Source: an uncultured Clostridia bacterium
GTDB lineage: Bacteria; Bacillota; Clostridia; Oscillospirales; Ruminococcaceae
Direction of reading: 5' to 3'
DNA: 34,117 bases
Assembly: GCA_947624345.1 (NCBI GenBank)
Contig: CANQJW010000008.1
Span: forward strand, 1-34,117
This document shows, piece after piece, positions 234 to 14,943 of this stretch; the first letter of the stretch is position 1, and the number at the start of each line of letters is the position of its first letter. The notes under the pieces are model-generated. The model searched no databases, had not been told where the DNA came from, and saw only the letters and a list, made by a program, of their open reading frames with translations. The position numbers and the translations under genes were made by a program.

Positions 234-1727
234 ATGAAGAAAGATTACTCTGAATACAAGCCCACCAAAAACGAGATTTACAACCTGAACCGTTCCGACA
301 GGGAAAATGTCAGGTTAAAATATTTCTATAACTACGCCGGTTTCAGCAAAGATGACAAGCGAATTCGTATAACGGTCGATGAAGGAAATGAATATTTTTC
401 TATGAATCCTCTCATTGAGGAATATACGGGAGAAGAAATCACCGCAAAAAACTTTGCTAACGATACAGAATTGCCTGAATACATAGAGCGCAATAAAAAG
501 CAACGAGATGTGTTTGCAAGCAGATTTCAAATAGATTTTGAAGGCGCCGAATACAGAGAACAGCAATATCTTTGGGATAAAGATAAAGGTTTTCCGGAAT
601 TGCCTTTTAATAATGTTCTGAGCGGTGCAAGAATTAACTTGCAGTACGGCGAGGGCATATTGGATTTCATATATGCGGATTTCAAATCGGCAATTCAGGA
701 ACAACTTAAATTGGTTGAGATTGAAAACCTGCTTTACAAGTTCGCACAGCAAGAAGGCATGAAAAAAGAAAAATCTCCGATTCATAAAGACGAACCGGAG
801 AAAATTTACAGTCAATTGCAGGAGCGAGTGGAAGAATACTACGAATATTCCGAAACCATAATCAGTATCAAAGACATAATCTACGCCTCTTTATATTCCG
901 CTATCTGTCCCCCTGTTTTCAAAAAAGGAGGCGATAAAAAGAAGCAAACATTATGGTACGGCAATTATCTTTTGAGACTCCAACAGGAATATCGTGAGAT
1001 GATTGAATTTTGCTTTGACGAAGATTATTATCCCGAAGCTTTGGCGGACAGATTGCCGTCGGAAAGGTTTTATATTTACCGTTCTCTAAAAGGTTTGTCA
1101 CCGTTCTTGGAGAGGACGGAAGAAGTGGCTTTCTCAAATACAATGAGCGGAAAAGAAATGCCTTACGGTATGGATATTGAAGGGCTGAAAGAAAGATTTT
1201 CTCAAAGTTCGGTACCGAATGATGCACACAAGGAGCTTGCCGAAAAATTCGGAACAACTCCCGAAAAAGTTGTGGCTTTGATAAATTTGCCGCATTTTAT
1301 CAGCCGCCAATATGTGTTCGGCTCGGTCGCTGAAATTCTTGAAATGGAATTTACTAAAATGCTCGAACACAATGTCCGATTCAGAAAGTGCAAACGCTGC
1401 GGTAAGTATTTTATTATGAAAGGCAACTATGACACCAATTACTGCAACCGCATTGCCGATGGTGAAGCCCGCAACTGCCAGGACTTAGCCGCACAAGAGA
1501 ACTATAAAAGGAAAATGGCGGACAATGCCGCCATTCCGTTATATCAAAAGTATTACAAGCGCTATGCCGCCCGTGTGCGTGTAAGGCAGATTAAAGAGCC
1601 CGATTTTAAGAAATGGAAATATCAAGCGCTGACAAAGCGTGACGAATGCTTCGACGGTAAAATAACCCTTGCGGAGTTTGAAACATGGCTTGAGGGTAGT
1701 TTTCCGAATAGGAAGAAGAAACAATGA
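234..1727 (+). CDS. DUF6076-type protein with C-terminal zinc-binding cysteines
   Basis: This is a 497-residue soluble protein without signal peptide or membrane segments. Near the C-terminus is a cysteine cluster that looks like a zinc ribbon: C386-K-R-C389, C404 and C415, followed by a basic, tyrosine-rich tail. I recognise the arrangement from DUF6076 proteins, which occur widely in clostridial accessory regions and have no known function. The start follows AAGGCGAG. The gene has its own perfect promoter and its own terminator, so it is separate from the defence operon that follows. Zinc binding is inferred from the cysteines; the role in the element is unknown. Confidence 0.8.
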   Translation: MKKDYSEYKPTKNEIYNLNRSDRENVRLKYFYNYAGFSKDDKRIRITVDEGNEYFSMNPLIEEYTGEEITAKNFANDTELPEYIERNKKQRDVFASRFQIDFEGAEYREQQYLWDKDKGFPELPFNNVLSGARINLQYGEGILDFIYADFKSAIQEQLKLVEIENLLYKFAQQEGMKKEKSPIHKDEPEKIYSQLQERVEEYYEYSETIISIKDIIYASLYSAICPPVFKKGGDKKKQTLWYGNYLLRLQQEYREMIEFCFDEDYYPEALADRLPSERFYIYRSLKGLSPFLERTEEVAFSNTMSGKEMPYGMDIEGLKERFSQSSVPNDAHKELAEKFGTTPEKVVALINLPHFISRQYVFGSVAEILEMEFTKMLEHNVRFRKCKRCGKYFIMKGNYDTNYCNRIADGEARNCQDLAAQENYKRKMADNAAIPLYQKYYKRYAARVRVRQIKEPDFKKWKYQALTKRDECFDGKITLAEFETWLEGSFPNRKKKQ

Positions 1728-1759
1728 TCGTTCTTTGCCAATAAACAACCAATTTTCCC

Positions 1760-1793
1760 AAGCGGAACTGTAACAAAAGCAGTTCCGCTTTTA
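1760..1793 (+). terminator. Intrinsic terminator after the DUF6076 gene
   Basis: AAGCGGAACTG and CAGTTCCGCTT pair over 11 bases around a nine-base loop and run into T's. It lies 32 bases after the stop codon and insulates the next operon. Confidence 0.8.
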
Positions 1794-1834
1794 TAATATT
1801 TTCTTGCCTTTCCTTTATAAATCCGCAATAATCC

Positions 1835-1863
1835 TTGATTTTAAGCTTAAAATATGCTATACT
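1835..1863 (+). promoter_or_regulatory. Promoter of the defence operon
   Basis: TTGATT at 1835-1840, a 17-base spacer and TATACT at 1858-1863, with an upstream TGC that makes it an extended -10 promoter. It lies just before the small HTH gene at 1906. No equally good promoter or terminator was noticed between here and 14943, so it may drive the whole 13-kb gene set. Internal promoters cannot be excluded, the gaps before 4392, 6295 and 10660 being the largest. Confidence 0.65.
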
Positions 1864-1905
1864 AAAATTGTATAAATATATCTACCCGAAAGTGAGGATA
1901 ATTTA

Positions 1906-2094
1906 ATGGATTCCAACATCGAGCGCTGGTACTCAATGAAAGAAATTTGCGAATATCTCGGAGTCAGCCGTGACACCGTACTCGCTTGGATAGAAAAAAG
2001 AAATATGCCCGCCGCAAAAATCGGTCGCCTTTGGAAATTCAAGGTCAGCGAAGTAGACGCTTGGATGAAATCCGGCGTTGCGGCAGATAAGTAA
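1906..2094 (+). CDS. Small excisionase-family helix-turn-helix DNA-binding protein
   Basis: This 62-residue protein is a single winged helix-turn-helix of the excisionase / HTH_17 type. It has a YSMKEICEYLGVSRDTVLAWI recognition unit at about residues 9-28, a K-I-G-R-L-W-K-F wing, and a final helix that reads EVDAWM. The start follows GAGGAT at normal spacing. It is the first gene of the long operon and lies directly behind the promoter. Excisionase-like proteins of this size commonly sit at the head of clostridial restriction and defence operons, so operon regulation is as likely as a role in excision. The true excisionase could be the gene at 15534-16115 beside the att site. Confidence 0.8.
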   Translation: MDSNIERWYSMKEICEYLGVSRDTVLAWIEKRNMPAAKIGRLWKFKVSEVDAWMKSGVAADK

Positions 2095-2112
2095 GTTTCG
2101 GAGATGTACAAT

Positions 2113-2598
2113 ATGGGTTTTATTGAATCGTATAAACATCTTGAAAAACTATGCGGTGAGGTATTGAATGACGATAGGCGTATATCCGCTTATATTGATG
2201 AAATGATAAATACTCCCCGTGGTTCTTATCTTGTAAGAGGTTGGGATGACGACTTAAAACAACTGAAACACTACCGTTGGGTTAGAAATCAAATAGCACA
2301 TGAACCTGATTGCACCGAGCAAAATATGTGCGAACCGAGTGATACTGTGTGGCTTGATGATTTTTATTCACGCATAATGAATCAAACCGATCCTCTCGCT
2401 CTGTATTCAAAAGCCACCAAACCTCGCCCGACTCAAAAACCGGTACAAGCTCATAAGCCGGAATCCCCTACATACACATATTCTCAGCCGACTTCTAACC
2501 ATAGGAAATCATCCCCACAGGTTGCCGGTTGTATGACATTTTTAGTAGGTATTCTAATTATTGTAGTTGCAATCGTTTTAATTTCAGGAATATTATAA
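2113..2598 (+). CDS. Small C-terminally membrane-anchored protein (DUF6548-like)
   Basis: The 161-residue product has a helical, acidic N-terminal part (about 1-95) with the pattern LKHYRWVRNQIAH. R-N-x-I-A-H recalls HEPN and abortive-infection helices (R-x4-6-H). A Pro/Lys/Ser-rich linker (about 100-140) and one C-terminal transmembrane helix of V, I and L residues follow. I chose the ATG at 2113 because GGAG at 2100-2103 is nine bases upstream; the ATG at 2104 touches it. The family name is from memory. The position between a regulator and a Fic gene suggests a role in the same cargo. RNase activity through the R-x-x-x-H-like motif is only a guess. Confidence 0.6.
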   Translation: MGFIESYKHLEKLCGEVLNDDRRISAYIDEMINTPRGSYLVRGWDDDLKQLKHYRWVRNQIAHEPDCTEQNMCEPSDTVWLDDFYSRIMNQTDPLALYSKATKPRPTQKPVQAHKPESPTYTYSQPTSNHRKSSPQVAGCMTFLVGILIIVVAIVLISGIL

Positions 2599-2618
2599 TC
2601 TGATTTTGGAGGTGCGCT

Positions 2619-3224
2619 ATGGCACTTGAAAATAAATTAGGTCTGACAAGTTCTGCCGACCTTGCCCGTGAAGAAGAGCGCATAAGCAAGAAAAAGGCTG
2701 CGGAGCTTTTTGAAAAGGGTATTTTAGATAACCTTCCTGTCGGCAAGTTTTCTACATTGCAGGCAATCCATAAATACCTCTTTGAGGACATTTACGACTT
2801 CGCAGGTGAGCTCAGAACCGTCAATATTGCAAAGGGTAATTTCCGTTTTGCCCCTTTAATGTACTTGCAAGCGGCGCTTGAGAACATTGATAAAATGCCC
2901 CAATCTAACTTTGACGAGATCGTTGAAAAGTATGTTGAGATGAATATCGCCCACCCGTTCCGCGAGGGTAACGGTCGCAGCACCCGCATTTGGATCGATC
3001 ACATCTTGAAGAATGAAATCGGCAAGGTTGTTGACTGGAGCAAGGTGGATAAGGAAGATTATCTGCTTGCAATGGAGCGCAGCCCGATTAAAGATGTAGA
3101 AATCAAAGTGTTACTAAAAGGTGCGCTTACAGACGAAATAAACAGCCGTGAGGTCTATATGAAAGGCATCGACCACAGCTACTACTACGAGGGATATACA
3201 ACCTTCAAAACGGAAGAATTATGA
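2619..3224 (+). CDS. Class III Fic protein (AMP-transferase) with C-terminal inhibitory helix
   Basis: The 201-residue protein has the full Fic catalytic motif HPFREGNGRSTR at 112-123: catalytic His112, Glu116 for Mg2+, and both arginines. Fic proteins transfer AMP from ATP to target hydroxyls. At the C-terminus, S187-Y-Y-Y-E191-G192 matches the (S/T)xxxE(G/N) inhibitory motif, in the place used by class III proteins such as NmFic, where the helix blocks ATP binding until removed by autoadenylylation. The protein should therefore carry its own brake and need no separate antitoxin. The start follows GGAGGTG. It lies 20 bases after the previous gene and 20 bases before a second Fic gene. The target is unknown (gyrase and topoisomerase IV for some relatives). 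Confidence 0.9.
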   Translation: MALENKLGLTSSADLAREEERISKKKAAELFEKGILDNLPVGKFSTLQAIHKYLFEDIYDFAGELRTVNIAKGNFRFAPLMYLQAALENIDKMPQSNFDEIVEKYVEMNIAHPFREGNGRSTRIWIDHILKNEIGKVVDWSKVDKEDYLLAMERSPIKDVEIKVLLKGALTDEINSREVYMKGIDHSYYYEGYTTFKTEEL

Positions 3225-3244
3225 TAACGAAATGAGGTACAAAT

Positions 3245-4327
3245 ATGCCCGACAAGAATTGGCAATTTGAACTTGAAGAATATATAAGGCAGGGCGAGCC
3301 TGAAAGAGCCGAAAAAAGTGAAGCTTGGCAAACTGCTATCGGTCTGCAGGCGGTTGACGGGCTAAAAACCTCCGAATATTTGCTGGATACTGCAAAGGAT
3401 CACATCGAGGGCAAAATTACCATCGATGAGGCTCAGAAGCGCATCCACAGCTATTACGAGCAGAGAACTACCCGCACCGAAACCGAAAACGAAACCAAAG
3501 AGGCAGATATTGTATCTGCAAGAATAACGAAGCTTTTGGGCGAAAAGGCGTTTCAATTTTCTCCTGCTGAGTGGATAACCATTCACCGCAGATTGTTTGA
3601 GGGCGTATTTGACCACGCCGGACAAATCCGTCAGTATAACATTTCCAAAAAGGAATGGATACTGAACGGCGAAACGGTTATCTACGCCGATTTTAACAGC
3701 ATAAAAGACACCTTGGATTATGATTTTGCCACCGAAAAGAATTTCTCTTATGATGGACTGTCGGTTGAAGCGTCGGTAAAGCATCTTGCAAAATTTGCAT
3801 CGGATATTTGGCAGATTCATCCCTTCGGCGAGGGTAATACAAGAGCCACCGCCGTGTTTATGATTAAGTATATGAAAACATTTGGGTTCCGTGTCAATAA
3901 CGATGCGTTCCGTGAAAACTCTTGGTATTTCCGTAATGCATTGGTTCGAGCAAACTATAACGATTTGCAAAAAGGTATTCATTCCACCACAAAGTTTTTG
4001 GAACTGTTTTTCTCAAACCTTCTGCTCGGGACCAATTACGAACTGAAGAACCGCTATATGCATGTTGATTTTGTGGATGAAAACGCTTCCCAAAGTATCA
4101 ATCCAAAAGTTTCAAAGTATCAATTTGATACTTTAGACTGTACTTTAGAAGAACTTGCGGTTTTAGAATTGGTTGCAAAGAATCCGACGATGAAACAGCA
4201 AGATCTCGTTGAAGCAACCGGAAAATCGATTGCAACCATCAAGCGAATTATGAAATCGCTACAGGATAAAAATTATATCCGCCGTGAAAGCGGAAAAAGA
4301 TACGCGAAATGGGAAGTTATGGTTTGA
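3245..4327 (+). CDS. Fic protein with fused N-terminal VbhA-like antitoxin domain and C-terminal winged helix
   Basis: The 360-residue protein has three parts. Residues 28-72 resemble the VbhA antitoxin domain (GLQAVDGLKTSE, then a GKITIDEAQKRI helix), but the inhibitory S-x-x-x-E-G reads L34-Q-A-V-D38-G39, so Ser is lost and Glu is Asp. Residues 95-260 are the Fic core with HPFGEGNTRATA at 192-203. His192, Glu196 and the first Arg200 are kept, but the second Arg of the canonical motif is Ala203 and the Gly/Lys after Asn is Thr199. Residues 300-358 form a winged helix. The start follows GAGGT. The combination suggests AMP transfer with weakened self-inhibition, or a different phosphotransfer as in Doc, coupled to DNA binding. 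The domain calls are firm; the consequences are inferred. Confidence 0.85.
   Translation: MPDKNWQFELEEYIRQGEPERAEKSEAWQTAIGLQAVDGLKTSEYLLDTAKDHIEGKITIDEAQKRIHSYYEQRTTRTETENETKEADIVSARITKLLGEKAFQFSPAEWITIHRRLFEGVFDHAGQIRQYNISKKEWILNGETVIYADFNSIKDTLDYDFATEKNFSYDGLSVEASVKHLAKFASDIWQIHPFGEGNTRATAVFMIKYMKTFGFRVNNDAFRENSWYFRNALVRANYNDLQKGIHSTTKFLELFFSNLLLGTNYELKNRYMHVDFVDENASQSINPKVSKYQFDTLDCTLEELAVLELVAKNPTMKQQDLVEATGKSIATIKRIMKSLQDKNYIRRESGKRYAKWEVMV
4114..4134. repeat. Perfect palindrome inside the second Fic gene
   Basis: AAAGTATCAA (4114-4123), one T, then TTGATACTTT (4125-4134). An extra direct copy of AAAGTATCAAT lies at 4092-4102. The palindrome lies in the linker between the Fic core and the winged helix. 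The same TTTGATAC core forms a palindrome upstream of the TnpV gene at 15390-15412. It may be a protein-binding site or simply a repetitive linker. Confidence 0.5.
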
Positions 4328-4391
4328 TCAATCTGCAGGTGATATACAATTTTTCAATCAACGCCCGGAACAAATATACGGAGGAGTTATT

Positions 4392-6239
4392 ATGGCTAAG
4401 AATATTGAACCTAAACTTAAGAAGATAGGTGATTATTTAAAACTTGAGGAAGATACTGTTTTCACTATACCAGAATACCAACGTGCGTATTCTTGGGGTG
4501 TTGATAATTGTGATAAACTGTGGCAGGACATAAATGATTTTGTTGAAAGCGAAAGCAAGGACAGATATTTCTTTGGAACGATTATAGTCAACTGTCAGGA
4601 CAATGATACAAAGTACGGTCTTATTGATGGTCAGCAAAGAACAACCACTTTCTTGTTACTGTTAAAAGCCTTACTTATAAGAATCAATGTCGCAATTAAT
4701 AGAACTGCCAGTGATGAGGATTCTGCCAGTTTGTGTCGCGGCTTACAGGAACGCAGAAGGAGAATCATGGGAATTCTGTATAAAGCAGAAACAGAAGATA
4801 TTTCCGATAAGCCTGATGCAACCAAAGATGCCGAGATCTGCCGTCGGGAGATTATTCTTGAAAACTACTCAATTAATGAACAGTATAAAACTGAGTTAGC
4901 CACAATACTTCAAGCAACTGATTTTGATTCAGCAGAAGCAAGAGTTACTAAAATTAAATACAAACAAAAAGACAATAGATACACTAATTTCTTTAGAAAC
5001 TTTAAATTTTTCTACAACAAAATCAGTGAATTGTCCGATTCGCAATTAAACAGCATTGCTAAAGCTGTTACAGATAACTGCGAAGTAATCGAAATTAAGA
5101 GTTGGCAAGTTGAACAGGCAATCACGATGTTTAACTCTCTTAACTCCGATGGCCTTCCTCTTTATGATTCTGATATTATCTCTGCGAAATTGTATGCAGC
5201 CGCAGAAAAGAGAGGTGAAGAAAAGCAATTTGCAAGTTTATGGAAAGAGTTAAATGACATCATCAATGAATTGGAAAGTGTTCATATTGCTGATATTAAT
5301 TCTATTTTGATGCAGTATATGTATTACATACGTACTATCAATAAGGAAACGATCAGCGATACCGGTGCAATTAATGTTACTACTCCCGGTTTAAGACGAT
5401 ATTTTACTGAGATTAATAAAATACCAATTTCCAATCCTATTACAATGTGTTCGAATATGATTAGATTAGCTAAGATATGGAAAAAGGTTTCCAGCTATTC
5501 TCAAATGAAAATCTTGCAGAAATTTAACGAGAATACCAAACTGTTTTTGGCAAGCTATTTTTATAGATTCAGTGAAGATGTTATCACCGAAGAGGTTATA
5601 GGTCCCATCTTTGAATGTATGCTTCGTTTGTTTGCCCTTCTCGAACTCGTTGATGTTGGCTATTCCAGTAAATATTTCAAAACTTTTTTGTTTGGAGAAG
5701 AAGCCAAATTTGTAAACTCAAGTGTTACTATTGATGAAATTGTCAAAGATTTCAGTGAGCATATTGTATCTAACTGGGATTTAGAAAGCATCGAAACAGC
5801 GTTGCATGATTACGACGGAAATGTGCTTGTTTATTTAAACGAGTATCTCTTTGCGAGAGAAAAAGGGGTTGGTTTTACTCTTGGAAGTAAATATGATATC
5901 GAGCACATCATGCCATATAGCGGGTATAACTTACAAGAGATTCGAAAAGACGCAGAAATTGATAGTGAAGATGAATTTTACGGAATAGTAAATAAGCTGG
6001 GAAACAAGATTCTTCTCGAAGAAAAAATCAACCGTGCAATTGGAAATGAATGGTTTAGAACCAAAGTATCAACTGAGCTTGAAAACAAGACAGGATATAT
6101 CAATAGTGAATATCCGATTGCTCAAGCATTGGTGGATAAATACCGTGACACTAATAAGCCATATTGGAAAAAGGATGATATTATCGATGCTACCAATAAA
6201 GCAAGTAATAGAATCATTAAGTTTATCTTTAGTAAGTAA
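4392..6239 (+). CDS. DUF262-DUF1524 nuclease, GmrSD-like
   Basis: The 615-residue protein has an N-terminal DUF262 domain with IPEYQRAYSW (26-35), an FGTI strand and D79-G-Q-Q-R83, the ParB-like NTP-binding motif of GmrS. Its C-terminal DUF1524 domain has a degenerate HNH site: I503-E-H505-I-M-P, then LGNKILLEEKIN. In GmrSD enzymes the first half uses NTPs and the second cuts DNA that carries modified cytosines; SspE and BrxU share the layout. I use ATG 4392 behind GGAGGAG rather than an earlier in-frame start lying inside the Fic gene. The 64-base gap before it is the largest in the operon, and its codons are more AT-rich than the Fic genes, so it may mark a separate acquisition. Confidence 0.88.
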   Translation: MAKNIEPKLKKIGDYLKLEEDTVFTIPEYQRAYSWGVDNCDKLWQDINDFVESESKDRYFFGTIIVNCQDNDTKYGLIDGQQRTTTFLLLLKALLIRINVAINRTASDEDSASLCRGLQERRRRIMGILYKAETEDISDKPDATKDAEICRREIILENYSINEQYKTELATILQATDFDSAEARVTKIKYKQKDNRYTNFFRNFKFFYNKISELSDSQLNSIAKAVTDNCEVIEIKSWQVEQAITMFNSLNSDGLPLYDSDIISAKLYAAAEKRGEEKQFASLWKELNDIINELESVHIADINSILMQYMYYIRTINKETISDTGAINVTTPGLRRYFTEINKIPISNPITMCSNMIRLAKIWKKVSSYSQMKILQKFNENTKLFLASYFYRFSEDVITEEVIGPIFECMLRLFALLELVDVGYSSKYFKTFLFGEEAKFVNSSVTIDEIVKDFSEHIVSNWDLESIETALHDYDGNVLVYLNEYLFAREKGVGFTLGSKYDIEHIMPYSGYNLQEIRKDAEIDSEDEFYGIVNKLGNKILLEEKINRAIGNEWFRTKVSTELENKTGYINSEYPIAQALVDKYRDTNKPYWKKDDIIDATNKASNRIIKFIFSK

Positions 6240-6294: not shown

Positions 6295-7155
6295 TTGAGC
6301 GTGCTTTCATTTATCGAAAAGCAAACGATTTGCCGATTGTTTGGAATAAGTGATGGGTTTATATTTAAATACTGGAGCGACAAGGGAGCCCACAACAAAA
6401 GCACAACTAAAGAGTTGATTTATGACTCTTGTGGGATAAACATTTTTGAAGATGTGGGTTACAAGGGCTTATCACAGCAAAAATGTATACAGAAGATTTG
6501 GGATGAGTGTAGCCCGCAAATCATTGCAAAACTCTTAAAAACGTTATCAGATTATTTCTGCTTTAAGATGGGGACAGATTGGTGGTCTGATGAGGATAAT
6601 TATGATTATCAACAAGTTCAACATATTATAGAGCGATTGCAAACTCTCCAAACAGTTGAACTTCCAAAAGAAGAGAACATTAAAAATCTCAAACTTCTTT
6701 TAGAAGATATTGAAGAAAACATTAAAAACGACAAGCCAGAATTGGTTGTTGACCGACTTCATACGTTCGCATCAGAATATTTGCGCAATTTGTGCCATAC
6801 CCACTCAATTGAAACAACCGACTCTAAAGGTAACGAGTATCCGCTTCATTCACTCGCCGGAATGCTCAAAAAATGGTATGTGGATAATGCTTATTTTGAT
6901 TCCGAATTTGCAGTTGTAGCTATTCAAAATTCCATTAACTTGTTTGATAAATTTAATGGTATACGAAATGACAATAGCGCTGCACATCCCAATGATTTGC
7001 TTTCAAAAGCAGAGGCAGAATATGCTGTTAGAATCATTGCGAATACATTAACTTTTCTTGATAAATGTGAAAAAAGTAAAATTAAAAAAGTTCAAACGCT
7101 TCCTTGGGATGGCGGCGTATTATACATAGCGCCCGACGAAGAATTACCTTTCTAA
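6295..7155 (+). CDS. Abortive infection protein with Abi_C-type C-terminal domain
   Basis: The 286-residue protein begins at TTG 6295, chosen because GGAGG lies seven bases upstream; GTG 6301 is an alternative. The N-terminal half is novel to me. From about residue 150 it follows the Abi_C pattern: a helical LHTFASEYLRNLC segment, then PLHSLAGMLKKWY, then FNGIRNDNSAAHPNDLL with an R-N-x-x-x-x-x-H core. That spacing (R-N, five residues, H) is a HEPN-like RNase signature found in many abortive-infection proteins. It lies between the GmrSD-like nuclease and the methyltransferases. I infer that it cuts RNA or causes dormancy when the neighbouring DNA-level defence fails. Confidence 0.75.
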   Translation: MSVLSFIEKQTICRLFGISDGFIFKYWSDKGAHNKSTTKELIYDSCGINIFEDVGYKGLSQQKCIQKIWDECSPQIIAKLLKTLSDYFCFKMGTDWWSDEDNYDYQQVQHIIERLQTLQTVELPKEENIKNLKLLLEDIEENIKNDKPELVVDRLHTFASEYLRNLCHTHSIETTDSKGNEYPLHSLAGMLKKWYVDNAYFDSEFAVVAIQNSINLFDKFNGIRNDNSAAHPNDLLSKAEAEYAVRIIANTLTFLDKCEKSKIKKVQTLPWDGGVLYIAPDEELPF

Positions 7156-7176
7156 TTGTGCTGGAGGATAAAGAAT

Positions 7177-8325
7177 ATGGCAGGAAACAAAAGTTTAGGA
7201 GCTGCTAGAGTTGCAAAGGAAGATGAGTTTTATACTCAGCTTACAGATGTGGAAAAAGAAATGCGTCATTATCGCAAACACTTCAAAAACAAAACAGTAT
7301 TCTGTAATTGTGATGACCCGTTTGAAAGCAACTTTTTTAAGTATTTTGTGTTAAATTTTAATCGTCTCGGTTTACGAAAACTGATTGCTACTTGTTATGT
7401 TTCCTCTCCGATTGCAAACACCCAACTTTCTTTATTCGATGTTATCGGAGCTGAGGAAAGCAAGCAAAACAAACCATACAAAGCTGTTGTGACAAAAGTG
7501 TACGACAAAACAGGAGATGGCGGCATTGATATGTTTGATGTCGCCGAACTGTTCAAGTCTGGTGAGAATCAACTTTGCGAGCTTGATGGGGATGGAGATT
7601 TTAGATCCTATGAGTGTTTAGCTTTACTTGATGAATCCGATATAGTTGTAACAAATCCTCCCTTTTCACTTTTTCGTGAGTATATAGCGATTCTTCAGGA
7701 ACACCGCAAGAGTTTTATTGTCATTGGTAATCAAAACGCTATCACATACAAGGAAATCTTCCCTCTGTTGCGAGATAATGAAATATGGCTTGGAGACAAA
7801 TCCGGAGATATGGCATTTATGGTACCAGAATATTACGAGGCTCGTGAAACTCGTTATTGGGAAGATGAGAATGGACAAAAATGGCGTTCGCTTGGTAATA
7901 TTTGTTGGTTTACAAATCTTGACATCAAGAAAAGACACGAAGAGTTGATTTTGGTTAAGCGATACGACCCGGATGTTTATCTGCACTATGTAAATTATGA
8001 TGCAATAAATGTTGACAAAGTAGCAGATATTCCTTGTGACTATGCCGGGGTAATGGGCGTTCCGATTACTTTTATGGAAAAATACAATCCCGACCAGTTC
8101 GAGATATTGGGAACGAGCGACAACGGTATTGTTCCAGATGAGTATAAAACAACTCCCGGTCTATCAAAAGAATTTGTTGATGACTATTATAAAGCCGGAG
8201 GAAAAGGCTCTTATAAAGAAGGTAATCCTACCGCTGGTGTTTATAAAAATGGAATTGCATCAATGGTTTATAAGCGAATTTTCATTCGCAATAAACACCC
8301 GGAGGTGAATTTAATTGCCAAGTAA
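7177..8325 (+). CDS. EcoRI-family N6-adenine DNA methyltransferase, copy 1
   Basis: The 382-residue protein has the catalytic N160-P-P-F163 and the CNCDDPFESNFFKYF block (43-57) typical of M.EcoRI relatives. They transfer a methyl group from S-adenosylmethionine to N6 of adenine in a short site. I use ATG 7177, which follows GGAGG. The downstream paralogue has the same register: I count 14 differences in residues 16-170. The two diverge just after the catalytic motif (about 198-235) and between QFEI(L/I)G and the shared IRNKHPE end, presumably the DNA-contacting parts. No EcoRI-like endonuclease gene accompanies it. Family call firm; the recognition site cannot be read from sequence. Confidence 0.9.
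   Translation: MAGNKSLGAARVAKEDEFYTQLTDVEKEMRHYRKHFKNKTVFCNCDDPFESNFFKYFVLNFNRLGLRKLIATCYVSSPIANTQLSLFDVIGAEESKQNKPYKAVVTKVYDKTGDGGIDMFDVAELFKSGENQLCELDGDGDFRSYECLALLDESDIVVTNPPFSLFREYIAILQEHRKSFIVIGNQNAITYKEIFPLLRDNEIWLGDKSGDMAFMVPEYYEARETRYWEDENGQKWRSLGNICWFTNLDIKKRHEELILVKRYDPDVYLHYVNYDAINVDKVADIPCDYAGVMGVPITFMEKYNPDQFEILGTSDNGIVPDEYKTTPGLSKEFVDDYYKAGGKGSYKEGNPTAGVYKNGIASMVYKRIFIRNKHPEVNLIAK
8301..8308 (+). promoter_or_regulatory. Ribosome binding site that decides a TTG start
   Basis: GGAGGTGA lies six bases before TTG 8315, inside the end of the upstream methyltransferase gene. It supports the TTG as start of the second copy, so the two genes overlap by 11 bases and are probably translationally coupled. 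Confidence 0.8.
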
Positions 8326-9493
8326 ATCCGAACTGGCTTTAGCAAACAAAGCTAAAAAAGACGAATTTTATACACAACTTTCGGATATAGAAAAGGAAAT
8401 GCGATATTACAGAAAGCATTTCAAAGACAAGGTTGTATTTTGTAATTGCGATGATCCTTTTGAAAGCAATTTCTTCAAATATTTTGTGTTGAATTTCAAT
8501 CGTCTTGGTTTGAAGAAGTTAATTGCCACTTGTTATGCTTCCTCACCGATAGCGAATACCCAACTTTCTTTATTCGATGTCATCGGAACTGAGGAAAACA
8601 AGCAAAATAAACCATATAAAGCTGTTGTAACAAAGGTATATGACAAAACTGGTGATGGCGGCATTGATATGTTTGATGTGGCTGAACTTTTTAAGTCGGG
8701 AGAAAACAGTCTTTCAGAGCTTGAAGGAGACGGTGATTTTCGAAGCAAAGAGTGCTTGGAATTACTTGATGAATCGGATATTGTGGTTACAAATCCGCCG
8801 TTTTCATTATTTAGAGAATATATTTCTGTATTGTTCGAGCACAAAAAACATTTCATTGTTATAGGAAATGTTAATGCCATTTCTTATAAAGAAATTTTTC
8901 CTTTGCTTATGAACAATAAAATGTGGATAGGTGCCAGTATTCATTCCGGTGATAGAGCATTTTATGTTCCGGATAATTATCCATTAGATGCTTCGGGATG
9001 TGGTATTGATGATGACGGAAGAAAATATATCCGTGTCAAAGGAGTACGTTGGTATACAAATTTGGATATAAGTCAGCGTCACGAAGAACTCATACCATTC
9101 AAAAGATATAACAGCGAAGACTATCCTCGATATGACAATTATGACGCCATTGAAGTGGGAAGCGTTTCAGATATACCTTGTGATTATCCTAATGTTATGG
9201 GTGTTCCTATTACTTTTATGGACAAATACAATCCTGACCAATTTGAAATTATTGGATTAACACAAGGTTGGGACGATTTACATTCGAAACGATACGGGCA
9301 ACAAGTACAAGTATCGAAAACCGGTAAACAGTCAAAAGTAATGAAACTTAACGACGGGCCAGCTATCGAGGTCATTGAAGCACCAAAAGATAAAACATAT
9401 TACATTGTTGATGATCATTTCTATATTAAGATGTATGCCAGAATACTTATCCGCAACAAACATCCTGAGAAACCAAAAGGAGGAAAGCAATAA
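8315..9493 (+). CDS. EcoRI-family N6-adenine DNA methyltransferase, copy 2
   Basis: The 392-residue paralogue of the preceding gene keeps the same CNCDDPFESNFFKYF block and N160-P-P-F163. Its two variable segments differ: SIHSGDRAFYVPDNYPLD and following residues after the catalytic motif, and a longer, unrelated stretch (TQGWDDLHSKRY onward) before the shared C-terminal IRNKHPE. Both copies look intact, so they are not a gene and its decaying duplicate. Diverged target recognition, giving two methylated sites or strand-specific modification of an asymmetric site, is the likeliest reason to keep both; this is inference. It overlaps the gene before by 11 bases and the nuclease gene after by one base (TAATG). 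Confidence 0.9.
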   Translation: MPSKSELALANKAKKDEFYTQLSDIEKEMRYYRKHFKDKVVFCNCDDPFESNFFKYFVLNFNRLGLKKLIATCYASSPIANTQLSLFDVIGTEENKQNKPYKAVVTKVYDKTGDGGIDMFDVAELFKSGENSLSELEGDGDFRSKECLELLDESDIVVTNPPFSLFREYISVLFEHKKHFIVIGNVNAISYKEIFPLLMNNKMWIGASIHSGDRAFYVPDNYPLDASGCGIDDDGRKYIRVKGVRWYTNLDISQRHEELIPFKRYNSEDYPRYDNYDAIEVGSVSDIPCDYPNVMGVPITFMDKYNPDQFEIIGLTQGWDDLHSKRYGQQVQVSKTGKQSKVMKLNDGPAIEVIEAPKDKTYYIVDDHFYIKMYARILIRNKHPEKPKGGKQ

Positions 9494-10611
9494 TGCATAT
9501 AGAGGAAAGAAAAATAACCGTTAGAGAAGTTACGGAAGGCTATTTTAATGATGCCGAGGAAGGCGTAGTCGGTTACGATGAACAACTTGATATTCGACCG
9601 AAATACCAGCGTGAGTTCGTATATAAGGACGAACAGCGCAATGAAGTTATCCGCACTGTGATGAAAGGTCTGCCACTTAATGTGATGTATTGGGTTGACC
9701 GTGGTGAAGAATTTGAAGACGATCCCGATACGCCACGTTATGAAGTTATGGACGGACAACAGCGTACAATTTCGCTTTGTGAGTATGTGGACGGCAATTT
9801 TTCAGTTGATGATATGCTGTTTAATAACTTACCAAAAGACAAGCAGGATGAAATTCTTGATTATGAACTTTTTATCTACATATGCAACGGAACGGAGTCG
9901 GAAAAGCTCGATTGGTTTCGTATTATCAACATTGCGGGAGAACAGCTTACCGACCAAGAACTTCGAAATGCGGTATATGCCGGAAGTTGGACTTCCGATG
10001 CTAAACGCTATTTTTCAAAATCCGGTTGTGCAGCAGATAGATTGGCCGGAGACTATTTGAAGGGTTCAAGTATCCGTCAAGAGTATCTTGAAACTGCTAT
10101 ATTTTGGGCGGCTTCTGCCGAAGGAAAAACTATCGAAGGTTATATGTCGGAACATCAGCACGATCCAAGTGCCGTAACTCTTTGGAATTATTTTCGTTCT
10201 GTGATAGATTGGGTACAAGCAATATTCCCGAAAAAACGCAAAGAAATGAAAGGTTTACCTTGGGGACTGTATTACAACGAACACGGCAAACGCACCGACC
10301 TTGATCCTAAAACACTTGAATTAGAAATTCAACGTCTTATGGGTGATGAAGATGTAACGAAGAAATCCGGCATTTACGAGTATTTACTGACCGGAGAAGA
10401 AAAGAAACTTTCAATCCGTGCTTTTGACCGTCGTGACGCTCTTGCGGCGTATGAAAAGCAACACCATAAATGCGCAATCTGCGGAGAAGGGTTTGAATTC
10501 GAGGATATGCACGCTGACCATATTAAAGCTTGGTCAAAAGGTGGACATACTACCCCTGAGAATTGCCAAATGCTGTGTAGGGATTGTAATCTCAAAAAAG
10601 GAAAACAATAA
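9493..10611 (+). CDS. DUF262 protein with C-terminal HNH nuclease domain
   Basis: This 372-residue protein starts with a DUF262 domain: IRPKYQREFVY (34-44) and D87-G-Q-Q-R91, the NTP-binding signature shared with GmrS. It ends in a canonical HNH nuclease: C327-x2-C330, H340-A-D342-H343, N357, then C362-x2-C365-N366. Zinc and catalytic residues are intact. Its ATG overlaps the stop of the second methyltransferase, and AGGAGG lies within that gene, so the three genes should be made in fixed ratio. I infer that it is the restriction partner of the methyltransferases: an NTP-dependent nuclease in place of an EcoRI-type enzyme. A modification-dependent (type IV-like) role is the alternative. Confidence 0.85.
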   Translation: MHIEERKITVREVTEGYFNDAEEGVVGYDEQLDIRPKYQREFVYKDEQRNEVIRTVMKGLPLNVMYWVDRGEEFEDDPDTPRYEVMDGQQRTISLCEYVDGNFSVDDMLFNNLPKDKQDEILDYELFIYICNGTESEKLDWFRIINIAGEQLTDQELRNAVYAGSWTSDAKRYFSKSGCAADRLAGDYLKGSSIRQEYLETAIFWAASAEGKTIEGYMSEHQHDPSAVTLWNYFRSVIDWVQAIFPKKRKEMKGLPWGLYYNEHGKRTDLDPKTLELEIQRLMGDEDVTKKSGIYEYLLTGEEKKLSIRAFDRRDALAAYEKQHHKCAICGEGFEFEDMHADHIKAWSKGGHTTPENCQMLCRDCNLKKGKQ

Positions 10612-10659: not shown

Positions 10660-13600
10660 ATGAACTGGTCTACTTTTCAAACTTACAATGATTCTCTCGA
10701 GAGAGCATTTGAGGTTTTATGTAACCAATTGTTTGAAAACTGGAATAAGAGAGAATACAATGATAAACTTGCCTCTTTCAGCGTTGTTAATGGATCTGGC
10801 GGCGATGGCGGTGTAGAATCTTATTCTACTCTAACCGATGGAAAAATCGTTGGATTACAGGCAAAATGGTTTCTTTACAGTCTTTCTGATAATCAAATCC
10901 AACAAATAAAAAAATCAATTGAAACTGCTGTCAAAATTCGTCCGCAGATATTCCGATATATTGTATGTATACCTCGTGACCTAGCATCCGACACCGGAAG
11001 AGGTACTAATACAGAAAGCAAACGTTGGGAAGCTTTATTGAAAGATGTTAAATCAAAACATCCTGATCTAATTGTTGAATTGTGGAACGAAACTCGTATA
11101 GTAAAAGAATTACAAGAAGACTCATCAGCCGGTATCAAGAAATATTGGTTTGAAAATTCTGAAACATCTGAAGATTCTTTCATTTTTGCTTTTAGAAAAA
11201 GCAAAGGAAGTTGGTTAAAAACAAAATATGTTCCCGACCTAAATGCGTATGGAAGTATCGACAATTATATTTCATTAACTTTGGGTGAAGTAAACAAACG
11301 AGGAGAATTAGCCGATACATCCTTGAAGGTTGCTGTTCTGTGTGAACAATTAGATAAAGCAATACTTGAATTTCAAGAAGTATTAAAGGATAAAGATGCA
11401 GAATTAAAAGCTGAATTAGATAATATTTTTGCAAAAGCAAGCTTGCTTAGTAGCACCTGTAGGACTATACACGCTTGGTGTATACAAGAATCTGTTTCTA
11501 TTTGCGACATCGATAGAAGTGCGTTTAGTTTTGACTTTGAAAGTAGCCGTGAAACTATAAATAGAAGTCACGGAACAGTGCATCATCACTTTCACCTATC
11601 AGAAGTAACAAAAGTTCTTCGCAGATTATCTTCTATTGATATATACCGAATTCTTGATGAATTCGACTCTAGTTTATGTACGAACCCAGTTTTATTTTTA
11701 GGTGAACCGGGGACAGGAAAAACACACGGAGTTGCAGCTTCATCAGAAAAGTTATTTGGTAACTGTATTCACACTCCATTAGTTATACAGGCTCGCAATA
11801 TTTCTCCGAGCTCGAATTGGAAAGATATAATTAGTTCTGCTCTTGGGTTATCCTCAAATTGGAGCGAAGATGAAATATGGCAAGCAATGATTTCAATGGT
11901 GAATAGACATCGTTTTTCTTCTGCATACATAGATTCTAATATTAAAATCGTTCCTAAGATTCTTTTAATTGTGGATGGAATAGATGAATGTGCTCCGTAT
12001 GAAATTTGGAATGACCGAATAAAAGAAGCGGGCATAATAACAAAAAGATATCAGCAAATCAGATTCTGCTTTACATCTAGACCATTTGTATTTCCTAAGA
12101 AACTAAGTGGTGTTACAACAAAACGCTTGGGCTCTGCTGGCGACGTACCTACTCACACTTTGTTTGAACGTTATATGGAAGCATACAATATTAACGCTCA
12201 AAATTACGGATGGTTAAAATTCGCTTTAACCACACCTTTGTCATTAAAAGTGTTCTGTGAGCTAAACGAAGGAAAAGCTGTAGAATATACAAAAAATACC
12301 GATGTTTCTTTAACAAATTTATTGCGCAGTAAAATTGACCTTATTGAAAACGAATTTGCCAAAGAAGAAAAAATATCCATTAAGAATCAGTATATTCTAA
12401 GAGCTATATTAGAGCTTTCAAACCTGTTTTTAAAGAGCAAATCCATTGAATATAGCGATGTCATTTCATATCTAATTAGTAACCTTGGTACAACTCAACA
12501 ACAATGCGAAAGAGTTCTACAGTATTTGGAAAACTATGGAATTCTCTCGTCTTTTTGTAAACACGGAGAAGGTTTGAATCCGGATTTGCATTTCTATATC
12601 CCGGGAATACAAGGTTATTTCGATTATGCAATGGCATTAAAATTGTTGGAGTCATATGATCATCCGCAAAATATAGATTTTGAACAGTGTTCTGCAATAG
12701 AAAATGAGGCTTTGTATGCATTGTCCGTAATGGCGATGCAAAACCATAATTATTTAATTACCAGAAATAAGACTATTGATCATGCTATTGATGAATGGTC
12801 TAAACAAGATCTGCAGTTTTTTGCTTTGAGGCACACCTCTCACGAAAATGGAGCATTGTTCAAAGAACGTTCATTAGAAATAATGTCTGAAAATGCAGAT
12901 GGACTAATGACTATTACAAACAACCTTATTTTACCGCTTTGCAGAGATGTCGATCATCCTCTTGGTGTTAAAATGTTGGATGAGTTTCTCTTTTCCTTTG
13001 ACTTACCCGCACAACGCGATCTGTTTTGGTCTGTGCCCAGCTTTCTCAGAGATTCTGATGGCTATAAGTGGCATACTTTGCAGTCGATTAGTTTAGATGA
13101 AGAAGAGTATGTACTGACTAAGGAAGATGTTTTTAACGGATGCCCTTCTGTATATGCGTGGTCACTTTCGACATTAAATAATACTTTACGAAAAGAATAC
13201 CGTTCCAACCTTATGCGTTGGGCAAAATACAATCCTTGTGAATTCTATAACTTGTTTATAAAATTTTCCACTATAAACGATCCGCAAATTAGAAGTGATC
13301 TATTTTCAATCCTTGTATGCTTAGTATATGACGGTGCTGATAGTGCCCTTATTAAAAAAGCCAGTGATTGGATGATGGATAATATTTTAAGTCCATCAAA
13401 AGTGCTTAATATTATGGATGTATCTATACGATACTACGCTATTGCTATAGTTCATAAGGCAGTTTTAGTTGGACTTTATAATAGTACTGATGTTTCAACT
13501 TATATGCCACCCTATAAGGCTGATAGTTATGATATTCCACTCGACGAAAAAGCGTTATCTGGAACACGGATGAGCGGATATAGTGCTATCGACTATGACT

Positions 13601-14943
13601 TAGCAAGATATGTTTTGATTGATCATTTCGAATCGGCATTTTCACAATATGGTCATAGAGATGGCGATCAAATCACCGATTTAATAAGCAAAGTTGCTCA
13701 ACTTCAACCCAAATTTGCAAATATTAAAAATGAACAATTTATTATATCAGCTGCTTTTGCATATCTTTCGCAAGTAGGCTGGAATGAAGATGAATTTTAT
13801 AATTTTAAACAAAAAGAACAGGGTGATGGGATAATAGGTGGATTAGATGTTGCTATATTAAGAAGGTACACTCCTGCGACACATGGCTCAAAAAGTTCTG
13901 TTATGACAGTATGCGAAAAATACATTTGGCAATTTCGAAATCATATGGGCGGATTTCTTGCAGATAGATTATTATATTGGAATAACTACGAGCCAGAAAA
14001 TATTAGAGATTATGGATTGCTTGATAATTTCATAATACCTATACAGGATGTCGAACAAATTGATCCCGATGAATTGCCCGAGGATAATCCTTGGTATATT
14101 CCCGAACCAAAGACTGCAATCATAGAAGCAGAAAACTGTAGTAAAGAAGAAGTTATCAATAGCGTTATTCACGCCCCAAACTTGAATTGGGATAAATGGA
14201 TTACTATAAATAATGCTGACAAGCAATATAGAATAAATAGCGATACTTTGTTGGCATTGAACAACTATTCTTGTTTTTATGGTTCTGCGGGTGTTGAGAC
14301 CTGTATCTTTATTAGTTCAATAATTATTGATAAGGATGATCTTGATGCATTCGTTGATAAATTGAGCAGCGATAAAGATTTATCTAAAAGAGTATCGAAT
14401 CCTGTCGATTGGCACGGCGGCATTGTTTCCTCCTGTTACATAAACCCCAAAGAGGTTTGTTGGTTCCCGTGGAAAAAAAGATATAATAGTAGTAATGTCG
14501 AAGATTTCCCTGATTTTTCTATACAGTCGGCAGTCGATGGCTGTTGTTATAATTTCCCTGAATACGGTGATGTGTACTATGATATTCCGTCTGAGCCAAT
14601 CAGAAAATTACTTAACATTGTAGATTCTAATGGATATATCTTTTATGACGATAATAAGAAAATCAAAGCACACTATTCAATTTCAGGAGAAAAGTGGAGA
14701 ACGGCTCAAAATTATTTACTTGTCGATAAAAATGAACTGTTGGATGCTCTACAAAATAGCGATAAGTCTTTGATATGGATTATGCGAGAATATCGAAGAG
14801 AAGATGGAAAAGCCAGTGAGCGATATGGGAAGTTCTATGCAGAGAAGGATAGTAGTTATGTGGGATATTTTAGAAACGGAGAATTTGTCGTTAAACAAAT
14901 TAACCGAGAAATCTCACATTCTCCAATCTCCCAAACAAAATAG
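10660..14943 (+). CDS. Avs-like STAND NTPase with N-terminal PD-(D/E)XK nuclease domain
   Basis: This is a 1427-residue protein. The N-terminal domain has GSGGDGGVE (46-53) with D49 and E53, then G-L-Q67-A-K69-W, the PD-(D/E)XK pattern of Mrr/Cap4-like nucleases. A Walker A motif GEPGTGKT follows at 348-355, a Walker B LLIVDGIDE at 435-443 and FTSRP at 471-475, as in NACHT/STAND ATPases. The long remainder (about 650-1427) is helical and should be the sensor. This order (nuclease, STAND, large sensor) is that of AVAST (Avs) proteins, which recognise phage terminase or portal and then degrade DNA. The start follows AGGAGG. It is last in the operon, followed by a hairpin. The Avs subtype cannot be told by eye. 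Confidence 0.82.
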   Translation: MNWSTFQTYNDSLERAFEVLCNQLFENWNKREYNDKLASFSVVNGSGGDGGVESYSTLTDGKIVGLQAKWFLYSLSDNQIQQIKKSIETAVKIRPQIFRYIVCIPRDLASDTGRGTNTESKRWEALLKDVKSKHPDLIVELWNETRIVKELQEDSSAGIKKYWFENSETSEDSFIFAFRKSKGSWLKTKYVPDLNAYGSIDNYISLTLGEVNKRGELADTSLKVAVLCEQLDKAILEFQEVLKDKDAELKAELDNIFAKASLLSSTCRTIHAWCIQESVSICDIDRSAFSFDFESSRETINRSHGTVHHHFHLSEVTKVLRRLSSIDIYRILDEFDSSLCTNPVLFLGEPGTGKTHGVAASSEKLFGNCIHTPLVIQARNISPSSNWKDIISSALGLSSNWSEDEIWQAMISMVNRHRFSSAYIDSNIKIVPKILLIVDGIDECAPYEIWNDRIKEAGIITKRYQQIRFCFTSRPFVFPKKLSGVTTKRLGSAGDVPTHTLFERYMEAYNINAQNYGWLKFALTTPLSLKVFCELNEGKAVEYTKNTDVSLTNLLRSKIDLIENEFAKEEKISIKNQYILRAILELSNLFLKSKSIEYSDVISYLISNLGTTQQQCERVLQYLENYGILSSFCKHGEGLNPDLHFYIPGIQGYFDYAMALKLLESYDHPQNIDFEQCSAIENEALYALSVMAMQNHNYLITRNKTIDHAIDEWSKQDLQFFALRHTSHENGALFKERSLEIMSENADGLMTITNNLILPLCRDVDHPLGVKMLDEFLFSFDLPAQRDLFWSVPSFLRDSDGYKWHTLQSISLDEEEYVLTKEDVFNGCPSVYAWSLSTLNNTLRKEYRSNLMRWAKYNPCEFYNLFIKFSTINDPQIRSDLFSILVCLVYDGADSALIKKASDWMMDNILSPSKVLNIMDVSIRYYAIAIVHKAVLVGLYNSTDVSTYMPPYKADSYDIPLDEKALSGTRMSGYSAIDYDLARYVLIDHFESAFSQYGHRDGDQITDLISKVAQLQPKFANIKNEQFIISAAFAYLSQVGWNEDEFYNFKQKEQGDGIIGGLDVAILRRYTPATHGSKSSVMTVCEKYIWQFRNHMGGFLADRLLYWNNYEPENIRDYGLLDNFIIPIQDVEQIDPDELPEDNPWYIPEPKTAIIEAENCSKEEVINSVIHAPNLNWDKWITINNADKQYRINSDTLLALNNYSCFYGSAGVETCIFISSIIIDKDDLDAFVDKLSSDKDLSKRVSNPVDWHGGIVSSCYINPKEVCWFPWKKRYNSSNVEDFPDFSIQSAVDGCCYNFPEYGDVYYDIPSEPIRKLLNIVDSNGYIFYDDNKKIKAHYSISGEKWRTAQNYLLVDKNELLDALQNSDKSLIWIMREYRREDGKASERYGKFYAEKDSSYVGYFRNGEFVVKQINREISHSPISQTK

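Follow-up and report, generated by a model that had tools for sequence, protein, structure and literature searches.

Exchangeable putative recognition blocks in EcoRI-type methyltransferases paired with a conserved DUF262-HNH nuclease: a candidate for methylase-directed restriction

In Type I and Type III restriction systems the cutter is shared while the recognition domains move. Both types diversify by moving and recombining these domains (PMC3983042), and duplicated specificity genes occur in Type I (PMC7394358). The DUF262 relatives GmrSD and BrxU are modification-dependent and stimulated by nucleoside triphosphates (NTPs) (PMC8565348, PMC12707154). In BrxU, cleavage comes after the nucleotide has been bound and hydrolysed; the DGQQR motif, which has been modelled to position the gamma-phosphate, acts in this hydrolysis, and a DH motif is required for cleavage (PMC8565348). 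Eco94GmrSD depends on the D, H and N residues of its HNH site (PMC4437046). Proteins with ParB (DUF262) and HNH domains have also been mentioned near restriction or BREX genes (PMC3710099, PMC12839542). The locus described here lies in a 34,117-nucleotide stretch of DNA (the window) from an uncultured Clostridia bacterium, contig C8 of a fragmented 1.70-Mb genome assembly, and consists of two EcoRI-type adenine methyltransferases, M1 and M2, followed by a DUF262-HNH nuclease:

7177..8325, + strand: M1, EcoRI-type adenine methyltransferase, 382 amino acids, ATG start; PF13651 at 478.5 bits, PADLOC MTase_II
8315..9493, + strand: M2, EcoRI-type adenine methyltransferase, 392 amino acids, TTG start; PF13651 at 496.4 bits
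9493..10611, + strand: DUF262 (GmrSD_N)-HNH nuclease (P0003), 372 amino acids, ATG start; PF03235 and PF01844

M1 and M2 overlap by 11 bases, and M2 and the nuclease gene by one, an arrangement described in an earlier note made from the sequence alone, the coordinates of which were confirmed. As a ribosome-binding site, GGAGGTG, lies at 8301-8307, 7 nucleotides upstream of the M2 TTG, and AAAGGAGG precedes the nuclease ATG, the three genes are probably translated as one coupled unit. Alignments of relatives show a methylase with two hypervariable, separately exchanged blocks and a far more conserved nuclease without such a block, which suggests that the choice of target lies with the marking enzyme rather than with the cutter. 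As far as the literature was searched, this signature of decoupled specificity is new: the search, with subscription papers and REBASE outside it, gave nothing on the pairing or on decoupled specificity in the text available, and the available portions of PMC4619093, PMC12707154, PMC4437046, PMC12839542, PMC3710099 and PMC8565348 do not describe a DUF262-HNH protein paired with an EcoRI-type methylase. The pairing itself is not new, since PADLOC already models the nuclease as Type II and plasmid records annotate the same pair.

The pairing was followed through 295 genomes of the window's order and 398 of its phylum, two being common to both samples. In the order sample all 30 nuclease places of 300 or more residues have a same-strand EcoRI_methylase match upstream (coordinates matched by eye). 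In two of these places (G044, G169:C48) the methylase is a contig-edge fragment, and in G266 the two genes are separated by cassettes spanning about 520 bases. Methylase places without DUF262-HNH comprise four at contig ends, one below the cut-off and one that is EcoRI-partnered (G169:C41, locus L129). The last, at 1468-3377 of its locus, is a true EcoRI pair, PF13651 then PF02963 (385 bits), in a genome of the window's own order. A nuclease of this length occurs in 7 of the 398 phylum-sample genomes, the window's own included, each time with a methylase directly upstream, and a methylase over the cut-off occurs in 8 genomes; with seven of seven nucleases following a methylase and a genome-level co-occurrence of p = 2e-13 (Fisher), the arrangement is not due to chance. 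The leftovers are a methylase remnant alone (G555), a broken nuclease alone (G452) and four further, partial matches to DUF262. The earlier note had proposed a search for the two families side by side in other genomes, and had named the lack of a conserved neighbourhood as evidence against its reading; the neighbourhood is conserved in both samples, so the reading is not refuted there.

A wider set of 116 loci (26 from the order sample, the best 80 of 183 relatives and 10 plasmid or phage regions, several loci appearing twice), from the counts of which three partial matches (L030-L032) were left out, gave the same picture. A strict adjacency rule was passed by 95 of the 104 loci having at least 1 kb upstream, and the nine others include two adjacent methylases with an alignment that stops short (L044, L095), a cassette array (L024), two distant or fragmentary methylases (L063, L068) and one intervening resistance gene (L144). 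In this last locus, on an Enterococcus dispar plasmid, optrA stands between the EcoRI-type methylase and the DUF262 gene. The gap between methylase and nuclease is at most five nucleotides in 70 of 81 loci, of which 34 overlap. On viral contigs (81 loci: 80 of 133 and L187) the methylase is adjacent in 67 of 73 testable loci, with gaps of 358 and 939 bases in L254 and L259; one viral scan gave zero matches, and an Aeromonas nuclease gene used as a DNA query against 5426 E. coli genomes gave one partial match only. On plasmids of Aeromonas, Mammaliicoccus, Lactiplantibacillus, Arthrobacter, Enterococcus faecium and Rhodococcus the two genes are recorded under the names 'adenine-specific methyltransferase EcoRI family protein' and 'DUF262 domain-containing protein'; the nuclease is labelled 'hypothetical' on a Moraxella plasmid, as are both genes in Apilactobacillus. 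The family is thus real and widespread, a restriction-modification family that catalogues already list under Type II, and its conserved unit is the pair of one methylase and the nuclease; a second methylase, as in the window, does not belong to that unit.

Mean entropy per 15-residue block reaches 3.32 bits in the methylase (88 sequences) against a maximum of 1.63 bits in the nuclease (87 aligned). Two variable blocks, A (residues 205-246) and B (313-376) in M2 numbering, stand out in the methylase, and their position and variability lead us to infer that they decide specificity:

7789..7908, + strand: M1 variable block A, putative recognition region, residues ~205-244; 98% identical to L035
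8107..8277, + strand: M1 variable block B, putative recognition region, residues ~311-367; at 65% or more only in L035/L004, one locus
8927..9052, + strand: M2 variable block A, residues 205-246
9251..9442, + strand: M2 variable block B, residues 313-376; the family's highest column entropy, at 65% or more only in L034

Blocks were scored as the same at 65% identity or more and as different at 40% or less, the counts resting on 80 distinct loci. Among 148 pairs with nucleases at least 90% identical, both blocks differ in 80, B only in 49 and A only in 8; both are the same in 2, and 9 are intermediate. The 17 pairs with nucleases at least 97% identical (14 loci, methylases 57-84%) divide into 10 with both blocks different, 3 with B only, 2 with A only, none with both the same and 2 intermediate. 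One 27-locus nuclease cluster (single linkage at 90%) carries 22 block combinations. Individual cases are pronounced: L053 and L056 have nucleases 98% identical (DNA 96.9%, fourfold sites 94%) and methylases 57% identical, and L005 and L073 have nucleases 98.9% identical, block A at 19%, block B at 9% and methylase core segments at 71-75%. The two blocks move separately, because A has changed in L007/L009 (20%, other methylase segments 75-100%) and in L005/L040 (30%, block B 100%), and B in L089/L090 (29%, block A 95%). They also travel across nuclease lineages, since 27 further methylases in the set (a few loci twice) have a block A at least 65% identical to that of M2, beside nucleases 52-97% identical to that of the window; L194, with a nuclease 49% identical, has a very similar M2-type block A by eye. 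In six inspected pairs of like nucleases beside unlike methylases the nuclease differences are few and scattered. Other nuclease pairs of 95% or more have fourfold-site identities of 44-89%, and the nuclease is therefore under strong purifying selection, its synonymous sites diverging far more than the protein.

The methylases partnered by EcoRI itself serve as a control, comprising five loci and 10 pairs (E. coli, Raoultella, Leuconostoc, Staphylococcus and the Clostridia assembly L129); L203, with a methylase missed by the motif filter, and L204, with a methylase of another family, were left out. These enzymes, 46-50% identical to the window methylases, are 48-95% identical to each other in block A, 68-91% in block B and 54-87% in the core, and in all 10 pairs the two blocks, averaged, exceed the core in conservation by 4 to 14 points. 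The methylases partnered by DUF262-HNH have a block-minus-core median of -44 points, with zero or more in 32 of 3240 pairs, and the independent viral set has the same median, -44, with zero or more in 6 of 1431 pairs. A second control was drawn from orthodox DpnII systems, with 12 loci of the same order, of which nine were kept (in L153 and L158 the adjacent open reading frame is no methylase, and L163 has none adjacent). In these nine loci methylase identity lies within -8 to +18 points of nuclease identity, the adjacent frame being confirmed as a methylase by Pfam in three of the nine, the three checked; a correlation of 0.21, calculated with L153 and L158 included, is uninformative. The EcoRI-partnered comparison offers a general, computable test of who reads the DNA in uncharacterised restriction systems.

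This decoupling of nuclease sequence from methylase blocks points to methylase-directed cutting, and it appears rather probable that the pair is a mobile restriction-modification unit in which labour is divided much as in Type I and Type III systems. Whether it represents a restriction class in which an EcoRI-type methylase would act as the interchangeable guide of a constant, sequence-blind DUF262-HNH nuclease, with specificity diversified by block swaps, by second methylases and, in some relatives, by a repeat-length switch, is an evenly balanced question. In such a mechanism the variable blocks would be target-recognition domains, each methylase marking adenine in its own target. The methylase would scan, and an unmethylated site would license the nuclease, which would itself read no sequence and would associate with the methylase, or with a methylase complex stalled on the unmethylated target. 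DUF262 would then bind and hydrolyse NTP, licensing HNH cutting as in BrxU, and fully methylated host DNA, giving no productive complex, would be spared. The tandem M1-M2 would provide one nuclease with two specificities, making phage escape by loss of one kind of site harder. As protection and attack would change together, a host could change specificity by swapping methylase blocks alone.

Several observations weigh against this account. The EcoRI control is small, having only five loci, its block B is only about 22 columns long, and in 2 of 10 pairs its block A, taken alone, is less conserved than the core. Divergence of the methylase core, too, outpaces that of the nuclease (a median identity of 76% where nucleases are at least 95% identical), and strong purifying selection on the nuclease may explain part of the contrast between the two proteins. 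No methylase trace was found in 3 of the 104 loci (L091, L092 and L106, of which two look damaged and L092 is open), nor beside the viral-contig nucleases L271 and L184-186. Eight pairs in the viral set have nucleases at least 80% identical, and coupling of methylase and nuclease holds in some lineages, because six of these (two being the same locus twice) keep both blocks; one keeps B only, and one differs in both.

The coupled viral pairs are also what would be expected of an orthodox Type II system, in which the nuclease would read a fixed target of its own and the varied blocks would recognise that same target through different residues. PADLOC models both proteins as Type II, a filing that likewise counts against methylase-directed cutting, and the two-gene layout fits. 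However, EcoRI-partnered blocks, with a target presumably shared, stay at 48-95%, whereas here one or both blocks are at 40% or less in 15 of the 17 pairs with nucleases at least 97% identical, and separate swapping of A and B is unexpected with a fixed target; this explanation is considered unlikely. The result divides the first proposal of the earlier note, of methylases that mark host sites and a nuclease that cuts unmarked DNA in a restriction system without EcoRI: the conserved methylase/DUF262-HNH unit does look like restriction-modification, but a nuclease that itself reads the site is disfavoured, since its sequence is decoupled from the blocks.

The note's other proposal, that the nuclease senses foreign modification, found no direct support. 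A Type IV-like nuclease attacking foreign modified DNA alone, with the methylase serving separate protection or regulation, would be in keeping with the modification-dependent, NTP-stimulated relatives GmrSD and BrxU (PMC8565348, PMC12707154), and an invariant nuclease would be expected. It would leave unexplained both a near-obligatory, probably translationally coupled methylase, a partner not expected of a Type IV enzyme, and free block variation confined to the DUF262-HNH partnership, and is judged decidedly improbable. Least likely is that the methylases act mainly as an epigenetic switch and the nuclease is retained in a minor or decaying role: the simple repeats and alternative recognition ends seen in relatives resemble phasevarion methylases, but the catalytic and NTP motifs of the nuclease are invariant in 45 relatives, and synonymous sites that diverge far more than the protein indicate strong purifying selection.

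The two methylases of the window, 64% identical overall, differ mainly in the two blocks, with block A at 32%, block B at 16% and 60-92% elsewhere (71-80% in the segments flanking A). The closest relative of M1 is the single methylase of L035 (88%), beside a nuclease 94% identical to that of the window. In the core tree the two L223 methylases are sisters, unlike M1 and M2; with midpoint rooting the EcoRI-partnered enzymes are not clearly placed, and the tree was used for tandem sisterhood only. The closest records to the locus are the Clostridia metagenome assemblies L033 and L034. L034 keeps M2 (98%) and the nuclease (96.5%), and its M1 is 77% identical overall, 68% in block A and 18% in block B. 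An unrelated tandem in G651, both members PF13651 with one nuclease, has blocks at 38% and 30% and 68-84% elsewhere; a third, the viral locus L223, has blocks at 37% and 13% and a core at 81%. Second methylases in three lineages thus differ mainly in the putative recognition blocks. Tandem methylases as a general rule were considered and rejected, as they were found only in the window, its near relatives L033 and L034, G651 and L223; the window appears to be a rare two-specificity form of the family. One segment may be a substrate for recombination between the two genes:

7213..7512, + strand: 300-nucleotide M1 segment repeated at 81% in M2 (8351-8650), possible recombination substrate between M1 and M2

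TRF detected no tandem repeats in the window. In L033 (5664-7998) both methylases carry one in-frame stop (TAG at 6063, TGA at 7372) and the nuclease is open, reflecting either a faulty assembly or a nuclease that does no harm when methylases are missing.

Five relatives have a simple repeat within, or at, the C-terminal part of the methylase, with two further block-B cassettes and then the nuclease behind it:

L194, 5990-6560: 19 copies of a 4-base repeat, in the window's genus
L196, 3010-3760: 13 copies of a 5-base repeat
L029, 1-600: two-base repeat near the contig start
L064, 1-480: contig starts in a four-base repeat
L074, 1-550: contig starts in a four-base repeat

The genome of L029 also has L197, a methylase that reaches a contig end within a repeat like that of L029; it may be the other half, or else a second locus. 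In all five loci each of the three post-repeat frames is open to a C-terminus: one soon reaches the native end, another enters cassette 2, and the remaining one reads through cassette 2 out of frame to reach cassette 3 (in L064 and L029 there are short extra tails). An open crossing frame would arise by chance with a probability of 0.002-0.009 per locus under random synonymous codons and of 0.06-0.59 when the cassettes' own codons are permuted, and the cassettes of L064, L074 and L196 look related, leaving about three independent cases. The repeat may switch among three recognition ends, without an off state, in these five relatives; the switch is not present in the window. With one genome per species compared, no variation in repeat length between strains was seen, and the literature search, in the portions available, gave no precedent for a three-end repeat switch. 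On two viral contigs, a poly-G tract of 11 splits the methylase into two frames (L249, 1900-3005) and 12 copies of CGGCA lie upstream of the methylase start (L240, ~1865), suggesting possible on/off phase variation.

The domain assignments agree with intact enzymes. Against a PF13651 cut-off of 26.4 bits, M1 (478) and M2 (496) match over nearly their whole length, and PADLOC MTase_II (PDLC03297) matches them over 3-318 and 7-324. The nuclease is covered over residues 1-370 of 372 by PADLOC REase_II (PDLC03418, E 5.7e-154), and its only Pfam matches are PF03235 GmrSD_N (DUF262, residues 33-162) and PF01844 HNH (residues 327-372); neither a helicase-type restriction subunit or translocase domain nor a C-terminal DUF1524 nuclease domain was found in it, PF01844 standing in the place of the latter. 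PDB searches returned an HNH fold, a weak BrxU match and weak EF-hand matches for the methylase. The NPPF and CDDP-x2-SNF motifs are invariant in 42 aligned methylases, and Q39-R40, DGQQR (87-91), C327/C330, D342-H343, N357, C362 and N366 in 45 aligned nucleases:

9751..9765, + strand: DGQQR, nucleotide-hydrolysis motif of DUF262, residues 87-91, invariant in 45 relatives
10471..10608, + strand: HNH domain with CxxC, DH, N and N residues, residues 327-372, PF01844

The earlier note's description of two intact methylases and a nuclease retaining its catalytic residues therefore holds, as does its statement that an EcoRI endonuclease is absent (no PF02963 among the 10 open reading frames scanned between 234 and 14943). 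Residues ~108-122 of M1/M2 (VYDKTGDGGIDMFDV) form a loop like an EF-hand calcium site; the methylase profile weakly matches secretagogin and calbindin (E 3e-4 and worse), and G115, D118 and D121 are invariant in 42 methylases.

Other genes of the window include a separate GmrSD protein (4284-6239; DUF262 and DUF1524), placing two DUF262 nucleases within 7 kb, and a 286-residue Abi_C-domain protein (6295-7155) directly upstream of M1, ending at 7155 where an alternative M1 TTG start follows at 7156. Two Fic-domain genes occupy 2619-4327 (PADLOC PDC-S04 and PDC-S72); homologues of the first, one of them partial, lie close to 7 of 80 related nuclease loci. A 1427-residue protein at 10660-14943, matched by PADLOC Avs2 profiles over residues 1-968 (E 5.5e-67), is likely an NTPase phage sensor beside the restriction unit. 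Neighbouring genes were rejected as parts of the system: among the best 80 of 183 relatives, with flanks of up to 8 kb and often shorter (E 1e-10), P0005 and P0006 recur only in L033, P0007 in 2 loci, P0008 in 7 (one partial), and P0004 and P0009 in none.

If methylase-directed cutting is correct, a pair so far classed as ordinary Type II would turn out to be a compact restriction machine, about 760 residues in size and guided by its methylase, in which one constant cutter is retargeted when recognition blocks are exchanged or a methylase is added. This would account for the way in which two genes alone can change specificity without killing the host, and re-targeting would become testable with natural alleles.

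Among described systems, PADLOC REase_II/MTase_II comprises the same families, already catalogued and filed as ordinary Type II, which the window unit resembles in having a methylase gene adjoining an endonuclease gene. The EcoRI system (PF13651 and PF02963) shares the methylase family; the partner in the window is DUF262-HNH, not EcoRI, and the blocks are hypervariable here but conserved beside EcoRI. Like the Type IV enzymes GmrSD and BrxU (DUF262 and DUF1524), the nuclease has a DGQQR-bearing DUF262 domain and a His-Me-finger nuclease part that contains a DH motif; it differs in its PF01844 HNH domain, its near-constant methylase partner and its length (372 residues versus 587 in BrxU). Unlike Type I HsdS-HsdR and Type III Mod/Res, it has no helicase or translocase domain that could be found, its cutter is HNH, and one methylase polypeptide combines catalysis with two blocks; what it has in common with them is a set of exchangeable domains, putatively for recognition, in the modification part, joined to a constant restriction part.

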